Assembly: GCA_015178975.1 (NCBI GenBank)
Contig: WHVD01000005.1
Location: 620,001 to 684,000 of the forward strand
Direction: 5' to 3'
DNA from: Hysterangium stoloniferum
Lineage: Eukaryota > Basidiomycota > Agaricomycetes > Hysterangiales > Hysterangiaceae
Length of the DNA: 64,000 bases
The notes beneath the pieces are model-generated. The model was given only the letters and a program-made list of their open reading frames with translations. It did not search any database and was not told the origin of the DNA. Shown piece by piece: positions 2,379 through 31,371 of this stretch; within the stretch, counting starts at the first letter, position 1, and every line of letters begins with the position of its first letter. Made by a program: the position numbers and the translations under genes.

Positions 2379-2967
2379 CTATTTCCAATCAGCGCGTCTC
2401 CAGTCTGCTGGCTGCCGGGGGGGGGGAAAGAGTGAGCGGGATGCCTGGCACGGGCGATAGGGACATACCTCGGGCTCGCGACGCCAGTCCGCGGGCTGTG
2501 GCACACGTCTCCAGTCGGCAGGCTGAGCTTCACGCCTCCAGTCGGCAGGTTGGGGTTCACGTCTCCAGTCAGCAGGTTGGGGCTCGCGCCTCCAGTCGGC
2601 AGGCTCGGGCTCGCGTCTCCAATCGGCGGGGGCAGGGTCCCGTCGCCAGTCAGCAGGCGCAGCCTCTCGTGCCACTACAGCAAGGACCGGTTCTCGTCGC
2701 CAGTCGGCCGGCTGACAGGGACAGGCTCTGTGAGGGTGGAGACAGAGGGGAGACAGCAGGACGTACCTCGGGAGCACGTCTCCAGTCGGCGGGCGTAGGC
2801 TCACGCGCAGCAGAGTCGCGGGCGGATATTTCATTCTGGGAGTGCTAGGAGAACACGGTGAGAAATGGGCAGAAAACGCGGGGGAAGGGGGTCGTTACCG
2901 GAGTGGGCAATGCGGCAACAAATGCAATGAAGAAGAGAAAGAAGGCTGATAACCAGGAGGTCAGCAT
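2379..2967 (-). CDS. Secreted Kex2-type repeat precursor (PADWRR repeats)
   Basis: Not a family I can name; the architecture is that of a KEP (Kex2-processed repetitive protein). Four exons read on the minus strand: 2899-2967, 2767-2844, 2469-2711 and 2379-2411. The three introns are 54, 55 and 57 nt, all phase 0 with GT/AG ends. The 140-aa product starts MLTSWLSAFFLFFIAFVAA, a clear signal peptide. After a short linker it carries ten PADWRR units with a 9-residue period and ends RRADWK. The tripeptide ADW is invariant in all eleven positions and is followed by RR, or by terminal K. Between RR and ADW nearly every spacer is two X-Pro or X-Ala dipeptides (EPQP, EAQP, VPQP, DPAP), the substrate type of Ste13-like dipeptidyl aminopeptidases. 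Two introns fall exactly at repeat boundaries. I infer release of many copies of one short peptide, possibly ADW itself. No UstY-like or other tailoring enzyme gene is seen nearby. Confidence 0.82.
2469..2711 (-). repeat. 27-bp coding minisatellite encoding PADWRRxxx
   Basis: This exon is eight copies of a 27-bp unit, the first extended by nine codons. Each copy encodes PADWRR plus three variable residues (EPE, EPQ, EAQ, VPQ, DPA). Substitutions between copies are mostly silent or confined to the three variable positions, which suggests selection on the core rather than mere recent slippage. Confidence 0.9.
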
Positions 2968-3797
2968 GGTGTAGGAGAGTGAATGAGAGTTAAACGATTG
3001 TGAGAGGAGTGAAGAGCATGGGTCTCCGGGTTTTGTATGGTTTAGAAATATTTGGGAGAGCATGTGCCAAAGGGTACCAAGGATAAGGAACCAGGGACAG
3101 GCCCCACGCTTGCCACTATTGTATCCAATCTCCGCGACTCGCCTAATTCCAGTGTTAGACTAATGTGGCTGCACCGGCACACATATGGCGCAAATTCTGC
3201 CGCGTTCGATACATATTGTGCTATCCAAAATGTCAACCAAGTCTCATGAAGGCATGTGAGTAGATCCTCTTATAATAGGTCCGAATTACTACCTATTACA
3301 TTACTATTTGATGGATCGTGCTTATTTAAAGATGATCACTATTTAGATGACCCGAGGTTTCCTTTTTGGGATCCTTCTTCTTCTTGTGTCAAGTGGCCCG
3401 GGAGTACTTGCACCAATTGGTGCGAGTCATCTGCTTCACAAAACACTCGGAACATCTTCATCTCATTAACCGCCCCAATTCCTCACTGCCGCGCATAGCC
3501 GGTTAAATATGCTCATTCGACTCAGCATTGCCACTCATCATGCCATCATCAGCACTACACATCACACGACTATTTAAACCCACATAAGCACTGGTACTCC
3601 CCTATAGTATAGTGTAGTGTACCTTTATCATAGTTCAATCTTGGGCCCAAGCAGGTCCCAGATCGATAACGATCTCGTCTCCTCCAACAATAAATCCAAT
3701 GCGCGCGGTAGTACCTGATTATCGTCGTGAAAAGTCTGCTTAGTCAACGTTCCCGCGCTCGACATGATTGCCTTTTTCGATACTCACTGATACTTGC
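2968..3797. other. Shared upstream region of two divergent genes
   Basis: 830 bp between the start codons of the repeat precursor (minus) and the Myb/zinc-finger gene (plus). No convincing exon was found. A pyrimidine-rich stretch and TATA-like sequence near 3605 precede the plus-strand gene. It probably holds both promoters, but I could not identify specific sites. Confidence 0.45.
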
Positions 3798-5984
3798 ATG
3801 GCCGACAAGAGCACTGTCCCTCGTCCATGGTCCCAAGAAGAAGACGATCTCCTCAGGCAGGCAGTTAACACATACGGCGACGAACCGGGTGTATGGAAGA
3901 CAATAGCAGAGTCTGTCCCAGGTAGGACGAACAAGGCCTGTCGCAAGGTACTCTCATCCAATCCTCAATTGTCATTTCTTGTTGTTCTCATCCGTGGCTT
4001 CAGAGATGGTTGCATTCCCTCTCCCCTCTTATTCGCAAGGTATTCTTCAATACGTCATCATCTCCCATCTTTGGCCTTTTGTCTCAGTGGCAACACCTAG
4101 ACTCCATGGACCCCCGCTGAAGATGCCCAACTTCTCAAACTATACGCAACCCACCAACCCCCTCGATGGTCTCTCATCGCCAAACAGATTCCCGGTCGTA
4201 CAGACGATGCATGCTCAAAGCGCTACCGTGAAGCACTCGACCCACGGCTCAAACGAGACAGCTGGTCCTCGAATGAGGACGCCAAACTCCTTGAATTGAC
4301 GGCCCAGCTCGGCAGTAAATGGACACAGGTCGGACAGGCAATGGGCCGCAGTGGTCTCGGCTGCCGCAATAGGTTCGTCTCTTATCCGACTGAATTATTG
4401 TGTACCTGGATCATTTCAACATCATTCCTGCATTTGTCCAACTAGATGGAGACTGCTCCAACGAAAGCAACGTTCCAAAATGGCGCCTAAAGCTCCTGCA
4501 GCCCAGCCTTCTGAACAAGACATCTTGGAATCCCTTTCTCCCTATAGCGTCACCCCCGAAACCTACGCGTCTAATGCTATTGAACACACTGTACTAGCTT
4601 TCCCCTCTACTACTGCGTCATCAGATACTTTTTGTGCCCAAGCTAACGGGATAGACTACGGAACTCAAGATGTCGATCAAGTCCTTTCCCCTATTGATCA
4701 CGAACATTATTCCCACTTGCAACCAGTGCCTTGCACCATATCCACCGTTTCTTCTCTAAGCGATGCTCTTGTACAGACCCTCTCCTCACGTTCGCAGATG
4801 TATCCCAATTCTTCTACTTCGCCACATCCTTGGATAGATCCCGACCTCTGTTCCGTAGCTCAGACCTGCCATGACCCTGCTCTTTCTGATCCTCTGGTTA
4901 ATTCTCACGAGGACTCGCCATTTACATTTAATGAAGAATATTGTCACTCGTCACCTAATAGCCATCATGACCTTGGTCTATCCTTGACATATCCCCACAA
5001 CGACGATCACACTATGAATTATGTTACCGACCCTGACTCTTCTACGCAGTTGATTGAAAATGCTGAACCCGTGTCGCTTACAAGCACGCTTAAGCAGCCT
5101 CGGAAGCGTGGTCGGATTAGTAAGATTGCTGCCCAGGAACAGGAACAACCACGGCTCTCGTCGCATCTTCCAGCGGACCTCGAGTGAGTGTTTGAAACCA
5201 GTCTCGGAAATAGCGAGTGATGGTATGACGCCCTGACCAAAACCATCTTTCTTCTTGCTTATTGATAGGCGCACAATCTTGCCGTACGCTTGTGGCCATT
5301 CAATGTGCTGGCCTCAATCGGCGCACACTGGCTCCGCACGTTTTGCCACTGCATCTGAACTGGCAGAACATCGGAAAACTGCGCACACCGGAACGGATTC
5401 CGCAGATACGAATGTAGATGAGCACTATAAACCTTTTAGATGTGCTCTCGAGGGCTGTGGGAAAAGTTGGAAGGTTAATTTTCATGACATGTTCTTATTT
5501 CCACGTAACACTGACCCTTATCACACTTGTAAGAATATAAACGGGATACAGTACCACCTGCAGATGTGTGTGCCTGGCATCTCTCCGCATATAAACTCTT
5601 TCACATATGACACCTTGATTTCAGATCGAAAGCACACTTCCAAACGGCGTTGAGTGAAAAACGCGTTCGAACACAGTCCTCTAACGCCTCTGAATCTGAT
5701 GCCGAAGCCAATCAAATGATCGATGAACGCGCGCACGAGGAGGGCGTAGAAGCTGCCAGCACCCGAAAACACCAGACAGCTAAGGACTTCACATGCCCAC
5801 ACGAGGGCTGCCCGAAAAGCTACAAACAGCGCACTGGGCTCCAATACCACTTGGATCATGTAAGTCTGCTTAACACGGACCATCGCGCGCTTGGCAAACC
5901 TGTTTTATGACACAGGGCCATCCCCAGGATGTTGCGCAGCTCCAGATCATTCCGCCCGCTTTGATGCGCAAGGCTGGACTTTAG
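3798..5984 (+). CDS. Three-repeat Myb / C2H2 zinc-finger transcription factor
   Basis: Eight exons join in frame: 3798-3947, 4004-4039, 4101-4372, 4446-5183, 5269-5473, 5534-5565, 5625-5859 and 5916-5984, giving about 578 aa. The N-terminus has three SANT/Myb repeats: WSQEEDDLLRQAV to ACRKRWLHSL, WTPAEDAQLLKLY to ACSKRYREAL, and WSSNEDAKLLELT to GCRNRWRLLQ. A Ser/Thr/Pro-rich middle follows, then a basic patch PRKRGRISK. The C-terminal half has C2H2-type fingers: a degenerate CGHSMC finger with downstream histidines, FRCALEGCGKSWK with YHL, and FTCPHEGCPKSYK with YHLDH. The two conserved fingers resemble SFP1-type fingers. Expected role is sequence-specific nuclear DNA binding; targets are unknown. 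The combination of both DNA-binding modules in one chain is unusual, but every splice joint is phase-consistent. Confidence 0.85.
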
Positions 5985-30631: not shown

Positions 30632-30828
30632 TTGTTCACTAACGCTTTTCCCCTTCTCTTCGTCTCTGTTCCTTTGTCTCCCATCTCACAGGATGCTTGC
30701 AGCATCTGTGACAGTTCTTTTTATTTCACGACCGCTGAACCTCTGAACTCGAAGGAGCAAGACCACCGGCGGGCCACTTTGTTGGCCACACAATACTTCC
30801 GATACAGCACATTCCACTACTGGCTTCG

Positions 30829-31371
30829 ATGGGTGGCCCATTTACTCACAGAAGTAACAACAACCGGCAGCGCTCCAAGCTCTTTTTGCCATGCCCGCCC
30901 CAGCTAGTGATCCAAGACCCACTCAGCTTCACTCGATTTTATGCTGGTGTGTGCCAGCGTTCGCGCCGCTTCAAGCCTACACGCTGCCACACCCACTTCC
31001 TTGGTGCTGAGCTTGGACAACATTTAAGTCTGCTCCTCTGTAATGAGTCTGCAGCACCCATTACTATTGCTGGCCCACTTGTTCCCGGCTTCCCATTGGA
31101 GGATGTCTTTCCCTCCCAGGATGGCTCTCACTCATCCCAACCACCTCCTGAGCTTGGACAACAGTTAAGTCTGCTCCTCTGTGACGAGTCTGCAGTACCC
31201 ATTACTATCACTGGCCCACTTGTTCCCGGCTTCCCATTGGAGGATGTCTTTCCCTCCCAGGATGGCTCTCACTCATCCCAACCACCTCCTGAGCTTGGAC
31301 AACAGTTAAGTCTGCTCCTCTGTGATGAGTCCGCAGTACCCATTACTATCACCAGCTGTGAAGAGTGGTAG
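30829..31371 (+). CDS. Hypothetical ORF with 47-residue tandem repeats, probably truncated
   Basis: Open frame of about 180 residues; the first half has no recognisable domain. The second half is two full copies and one partial copy of a 47-residue unit beginning ELGQQLSLLLCDESAVPITI and continuing GPLVPGFPLEDVFPSQDGSH. The third copy breaks at about 31352, exactly where the hairpin-rich retroelement remnant begins, so the last residues SCEEW come from the mobile DNA. I cannot assign a function. A real gene interrupted by an insertion, or an ORF belonging to the repeat family, both fit. Confidence 0.4.
   Translation: MGGPFTHRSNNNRQRSKLFLPCPPQLVIQDPLSFTRFYAGVCQRSRRFKPTRCHTHFLGAELGQHLSLLLCNESAAPITIAGPLVPGFPLEDVFPSQDGSHSSQPPPELGQQLSLLLCDESAVPITITGPLVPGFPLEDVFPSQDGSHSSQPPPELGQQLSLLLCDESAVPITITSCEEW
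31009..31352 (+). repeat. 141-bp tandem repeat, 2.4 copies
   Basis: Units start at 31009, 31150 and 31291, each beginning GAGCTTGGACAACA. The first two are 141 bp (a multiple of three); the third stops after about 62 bp. Copies differ by only a few substitutions, so the duplication is fairly recent. Confidence 0.92.

Follow-up and report, generated by a model that had tools for sequence, protein, structure and literature searches.

We find that Hysterangium stoloniferum carries, on the minus strand of the window (the whole 64-kb stretch of DNA that was analysed), a four-exon gene at 2967-2379 that encodes a 137-residue, apparently secreted precursor with eleven Ala-Asp-Trp (ADW) cores. That this is a real gene we regard as nearly certain. 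Our reading of it, which we hold to be probable, is that a secreted Kex2-processed repeat precursor is handled in the manner of yeast pro-alpha-factor and trimmed to ADW, which, as a guess, may be a signal. Kex2-processed repeat proteins (KEPs) are a described class (PMC6339444, PMC7329392), and the unusual feature here is that the core is reduced to ADW alone; STE13-type KEPs and peptides ending in -AADW are already known. The host is an ectomycorrhizal fungus (PMC7550596) of the order Hysterangiales, subclass Phallomycetidae.

Re-splicing reproduced the coordinates, the strand and the four phase-0 exons given in the first-pass annotation: with introns 2898-2836, 2766-2712 and 2468-2412 taken out, the coding sequence is open and 414 nt long. 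Exon 1 (2899-2967, this and all other exons and introns on the minus strand) starts in the context CACCATG and encodes a hydrophobic segment, MLTSWLSAFFLFFIAFVAALPTP, that by eye resembles a signal peptide. Exon 2 (2767-2835) encodes the pro-region, which ends in SAAR, then the first repeat unit (EPTPADWRR) and APE, with which the second opens (three residues). Exon 3 (2469-2711) holds the remainder of unit 2, a decayed unit 3, units 4-10 of the form X[P/A]-XP-ADWRR and EPE, the opening three residues of unit 11, and exon 4 (2379-2411) completes unit 11 (PADWRR) and ends with ADWK and a stop codon, with the last ADW directly after RR. All three introns run GT...AG, are 54-63 nt long and contain CTCAC, which we take to be the branch point of a fungal intron; its A lies 14-23 bases before the 3′ end. 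Intron 1 (GTAACG...TCCCAG) has this A 23 bases from its 3′ end, or 14 bases from an alternative end at 2845 (TCCTAG), which lies 9 bases earlier than 2836, is also in phase 0 and adds HSQ to give a protein of 140 aa. Introns 2 (GAG/GTACGT...TGTCAG/CCG, A at 19 bases) and 3 (GAG/GTATGT...CGGCAG/CCA, A at 21 bases) interrupt the repeat unit at the same place, past its third residue (after APE and after EPE), with GTACGT and GTATGT as donors.

From residue 35 the protein consists of eleven consecutive nine-residue units followed by ADWK; of these twelve in-register units, all but one contain ADW. Ten of the nine-residue ones read X-[P/A]-X-P-ADWRR; unit 3 (2667-2693, minus strand), EPVLAVVAR, keeps the register, has neither ADW nor a dibasic site, and is a decayed copy. 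The first-pass annotation had listed the nine-residue period, the eleven ADW tripeptides, RR behind ten of them and a lone K between the last one and the stop, all of which we recovered; its count of eleven ADW units stands, and the twelfth, decayed unit had been missed. The VVAR ending of this unit resembles the SAAR that closes the pro-region. At the DNA level, TRF reports a 27-bp array with a score of 172. The six frames of the window contain ADW[KR] 11 times, where 100 first-order Markov shuffles average 0.36; as many as 9 occurrences fall within 100 codons, a span in which no shuffle has more than 1.

The annotation had suggested comparing the core with the spacers for conservation, and the two behave differently. 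Across the ten intact full units, all 17 substitutions from the consensus in the ADWRR codons are synonymous, the invariant pentapeptide being encoded by four Ala codons, two Asp codons and several Arg codons, whereas 16 of the 29 substitutions in the four spacer codons change the amino acid. Spacer positions 1, 2 and 3 vary in amino acid in these units, and position 4 is always Pro. When 17 changes were placed at random, none of 200,000 simulated placements was synonymous throughout, a figure to be read as a guide rather than a P-value, since tandem duplication makes the units non-independent. Counted over whole units, the ratio of synonymous to other changes is 30:16 in the coding frame and 31:15 in one antisense frame, so that the synonymous count alone does not choose the strand. 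The minus strand was chosen because this antisense frame stays open over no more than 62 aa and because annotated proteins of other fungi carry the repeat in the ADW frame. A 27-bp DNA tandem repeat that is open by chance, with no gene at all, would sit well with the TRF array and with the similar synonymous share in the antisense frame; it would leave the signal-like exon, the in-phase splice sites and the occurrence of the same protein repeat in other fungi as coincidences, and we find it scarcely credible.

By its layout the precursor is very probably a KEP. KEPs are recognised by an N-terminal signal peptide and at least three repeated motifs between dibasic sites; this precursor has ten ADW units ending in RR plus the terminal ADWK, and its N-terminus, clearly hydrophobic by eye, may be a signal peptide. 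The STE13 signature, X-Pro or X-Ala pairs between the dibasic site and the core, is present in 10 of the 10 spacer-bearing intact units. Basidiomycete KEPs with STE13 signatures, with repeat motifs from three residues up, have been described (PMC6339444), and SGVAADW and its relatives have been found by mass spectrometry in Pleurotus, where the precursors have STE13 motifs (PMC9769878). SGTGEASAADW has likewise been found by mass spectrometry in shiitake, and the shared -AADW end has been remarked on (PMC9769878). The view that the precursor looked undescribed in kind is thus not supported, while that of a Kex2-type repeat precursor with X-Pro/X-Ala spacers before a very short ADW core is supported by the array and by the relatives described below.

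The processing steps from translation to free ADW can be proposed from the anatomy of the precursor. The signal peptide would direct the protein into the secretory pathway, where a Kex2-type protease would cut after RR, and perhaps also after the single R of SAAR and VVAR, and a Kex1-type carboxypeptidase would then take off the basic residues. A STE13-type dipeptidyl aminopeptidase would remove the X-Pro/X-Ala pairs two residues at a time and would halt at Ala-Asp-Trp, where Asp in position 2 would not be accepted, so that each precursor would yield up to eleven linear ADW tripeptides. Such removal of XA/XP pairs has been shown in Pichia for a KEP of C. cinerea (PMC9769878). The last unit, as had been pointed out in the annotation, lacks a spacer: its ADWK comes straight after RR and needs no trimming. 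We give an even chance to free ADW, rather than longer trimming intermediates, being the main end product; that one of the twelve Hysterangium units is decayed counts against our reading as a whole. The calculated [M+H]+ values are 391.161 for ADW, 843.352 for EPEPADW and 842.368 for EPQPADW.

The genome contains candidates for these enzymes. A candidate kexin on contig C29 has a subtilase domain, a P domain, a hydrophobic segment (by eye) and an acidic tail, and a candidate dipeptidyl peptidase on C552 has DPPIV_N and Peptidase_S9 domains behind an N-terminal stretch with a hydrophobic segment (by eye). The P-domain search gave one match in the genome; three kex2 genes are described in C. cinerea (PMC9769878). 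Peptidase_S10 gave 35 exon matches, from which no Kex1 was singled out. These genes are weak evidence for the pathway, since kexin and dipeptidyl peptidase genes serve many substrates.

A protein profile search returned 22 relatives, of which 20 have at least two DW-dibasic units, a share biased upwards because the profile was built from DW-dibasic proteins, and nine have at least two ADW-dibasic units. Homologues lacking conserved ADW and RR, which the annotation had said would speak against its interpretation, are therefore not what we see, with DW and the dibasic site kept in 20 of 22 under the same upward bias. The two outside the DW pattern are a Termitomyces protein with cores mostly ending PGW (P0009) and a protein with a single unit that is probably unrelated (P0019); two Trametes proteins (P0015, P0018) and the similar P0003 and P0004 have two DW-dibasic units each and look like a different kind of protein. 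The bare ADW design is common to a Ramaria rubella protein (K439DRAFT_1610884, P0001) and a metagenomic protein (P0007), both of which have ADW, EPADW and EPEPADW units, with EPSPADW in Ramaria. Ramaria rubella belongs to the same subclass, Phallomycetidae, and its units read EPADWKR, ADWKR, EPEPADWKR and EPSPADWRR. It differs from Hysterangium in having fewer units, KR mixed with RR, and one AQW and one ADS unit. The annotated Ramaria protein seems, from its letters, to read through introns, as it has EPEV where unspliced Hysterangium introns would give PEV.

Spacer length in these three precursors is regular. In all 26 parsed units from Hysterangium, Ramaria rubella and P0007, ADW is separated from the dibasic site by 0, 2 or 4 residues (3, 8 and 15 units, respectively). 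Within the spacers, Pro (36) or Ala (2) occupies each second position, preceded by a variable residue (E, Q, A, T, D, V or S). Three fragments through presumed intron sequence (two from Ramaria, one from P0007), the Ramaria AQW and ADS units and the decayed Hysterangium unit are excluded from this count; one of the excluded Ramaria fragments, running through a presumed intron, ends PQPQADW and may count against the ADW reading. Because the units of a single precursor are copies of one another, what counts as independent is which lengths each precursor shows: 0 and 4 in Hysterangium and 0, 2 and 4 in each of Ramaria and P0007. Even spacers with P or A at every second position match what stepwise dipeptide trimming predicts.

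If processing involved Kex2 and Kex1 only, the mature products would be heptapeptides (EPEPADW, EPQPADW and so on) with the X-Pro pairs protecting the peptide N-terminus. In C. cinerea, Lentinula and Pleurotus, the peptides that mass spectrometry identified do keep several residues before W (PMC9769878), and we allow this alternative a modest chance, well below that of trimming. Three of the first four residues of the heptapeptide differ between units while ADW is constant, spacers of 0, 2 and 4 residues stand side by side in Ramaria and P0007, and the terminal ADWK unit would be left unexplained. It is also conceivable that the repeat protein works uncut after secretion, or as pieces coating the hyphal wall like Rep1 of Ustilago maydis, which is Kex2-processed, has no STE13 signature and gives hypha-attached peptides (PMC6339444). 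We consider this improbable: RR recurs regularly at nine-residue intervals, the STE13 signature is clear, and the products of related ADW precursors have been recovered as short peptides (PMC9769878).

Trimming to ADW has to be weighed against the longer cores of other relatives. The Leucocoprinus leucothites protein D9756_007125 (P0002) resembles the Hysterangium precursor in its eight dibasic-flanked ADW units, each opening with an EP or EA pair. Its core, however, reads QADW, and it counts against a strict ADW core because EPQADW/EAQADW trims evenly to QADW or DW; its end product may be pyroGlu-ADW. The Pleurotus KEPs 1091723 and 1439342 and the Lentinula edodes KEP 2599 likewise have dibasic-flanked repeats with cores ending in ADW, but their peptides are 7-11 residues long (SGVAADW, MSGVAADW, LSGVAADW, SGTGEASAADW), whereas in Hysterangium only ADW would be left after the predicted trimming (PMC9769878). 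The residue before ADW is P in ten Hysterangium units and R in one, so that ADW alone, rather than the -AADW of the KEPs in PMC9769878, is common to them. As the core is longer in most Agaricales relatives, ADW may elsewhere be the mere ending of a longer active peptide. At the end of the signal peptide, judged by eye, P0001, P0002, P0010, P0012, P0013 and P0014 have AP[VI]; the Hysterangium protein has LPT there. N-terminal tripeptides are read by the export receptor Erv29/Surf4, for which pro-alpha-factor is named as a cargo (PMC6097701).

The annotation had also offered a modified RiPP, and a dikaritin-like product, in which UstYa-type oxidases cross-link or cyclise the cores after Kex2 cleavage, would share the same precursor architecture. 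DUF3328 genes accompany 22% of KEP genes, at a mean of 3.09 genes away (PMC7329392). An exon-by-exon search of the whole genome, whose counts are lower bounds, gave 17 UstYa matches, which makes an unlinked enzyme conceivable; none of the 17 lies on C441, the 1.75-Mb contig of the gene, and no UstYa appeared among 29 nearby ORFs searched against Pfam. No UstYa/DUF3328 gene clustered with the precursor was thus found, and with no match on its 1.75-Mb contig we hold a dikaritin-type RiPP to be unlikely, its probability being small; the modified-RiPP proposal is not supported. The 17 UstYa (DUF3328) exon matches lie on C536, C549, C476, C279, C110 and C246, several of them close together and some, on C476 and C549, with identical scores that suggest duplication; these are possible dikaritin-type loci of the fungus.

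Length and position guided the choice of the 29 nearby ORFs: 63 ORFs in the window reach 130 aa, and 19 of these were taken, along with one shorter window ORF and nine from the left flank. Pfam families were assigned at E 0.01 to 17 of them (4/10, 7/10 and 6/9 in the three sets), and no recognised peptide-modifying enzyme was among these 17. The left side holds a protein kinase, an HscB-type co-chaperone, a ClpB-type ATPase and MMM1; a TTL domain and a Myb domain adjoin the gene; further right are a 3-beta-HSD-type dehydrogenase, WD40 proteins, kinases, an MFS transporter at a distance of about 20 kb, a polysaccharide deacetylase and a RING finger protein. On the opposite strand beside the precursor gene, 3768-5981 (+) has a Myb DNA-binding domain and, by eye, C2H2-like motifs; two ORFs there, 4300-5184 and 5237-5650, had no Pfam match. 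A 210-aa ORF at 30739-31368 (+) scores 31.3 bits against the Pfam lanthipeptide-precursor family RamS (cut-off 24.3), with no single stretch passing and the best covering about 15 residues; this is probably a low-complexity match.

Ascomycete alpha-factor-type pheromone precursors likewise have the Kex2/Kex1/STE13 layout, but the core of the Hysterangium precursor is much shorter. The precursor matches no Pfam family at E 1, the alpha-factor family included, and no solved structure at E 1. STE2 receptor searches found no match in the genome, and control genomes gave no match either. Nor does it resemble a lipid-modified mating pheromone: the protein ends in ADWK rather than a CaaX motif, and the STE3 receptor matches lie elsewhere, on C553. 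A mating-type link was rejected on finding all 15 STE3 exon matches on that contig. They fall within about 10 kb (C553:189684-199876), apparently several receptor genes, and this cluster is likely a pheromone-receptor mating-type locus.

Searches of the genome found no second copy of the gene, the precursor query returning three exon matches, all from this gene. Together with a search using a Pleurotus relative, they gave these three and one weak match (E 0.10) on C4, met through a Pleurotus KEP. That stretch, C4:160574-160768 (-), is repeat-rich and open in several frames, one of which gives SSTCTGWRKERR-like units; with no DW in any frame it is probably a DNA repeat and was rejected as a paralogue. 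A first DNA pattern search gave 37 matches, seven inside the gene and the rest scattered. The ADW-basic DNA pattern gave 328 matches genome-wide against 77 for a reversed control pattern, and among the first 100 of the 328, which stop before C441, no two lie within 1 kb on one strand.

Neither a Hysterangium entry nor a copy of the precursor was among the 6 and the 22 proteins returned by the protein database searches, whose sensitivity is limited. Since Hysterangium stoloniferum is otherwise represented by proteins in that database, the gene probably lacks an annotation there. We met no precursor with a core of ADW alone in the portions of the KEP literature covered (PMC6339444, PMC7329392 and PMC9769878), and the words Hysterangium and Ramaria are absent from the main texts of PMC7329392 and PMC6339444. 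A description of this gene was likewise not found in the portions covered of the literature on ADW motifs, KEX2-processed repeat proteins, tripeptide precursors and Hysterangium; Fig. S10f of PMC9769878 might show similar precursors. Among the matches listed for ADW-motif strings in the literature, the mushroom-peptide papers are PMC9769878 and the review PMC10417677. For the mushroom KEP peptides with an ADW ending that have been detected, the literature covered gives no known function, and the portions of PMC9769878 covered report no phenotype for six Coprinopsis kep knockouts.

All but ADW appears to be interchangeable trimming material, which points to ADW as the part that matters. Our guess is that ADW would most likely act as an extracellular signal, received by hyphae of the fungus itself or directed at its surroundings or host plant. 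Vertebrate pro-TRH is presumably a parallel: its repeats carry dibasic sites and a tripeptide is released from them, as proposed for ADW. TRH is pyroGlu-His-Pro-amide; no homology is claimed, and no sign of amidation is known for ADW. The length of TRH, three residues, is given in PMC6339444.

We tentatively suggest, as a possibility short of an even chance, that mushroom-forming fungi may have a peptide-hormone family with a shared active end, Ala-Asp-Trp or X-Asp-Trp, and that Phallomycetidae such as Hysterangium and Ramaria may secrete that end alone as a TRH-like, encoded, many-copy tripeptide signal. Peptidomics tuned to longer peptides would be expected to miss ADW. A single cheap synthetic tripeptide could be tried on growth, fruiting and root symbiosis, and if the suggestion is true, ADW, being three residues long, could be perceived through a receptor or imported by di/tripeptide transporters.
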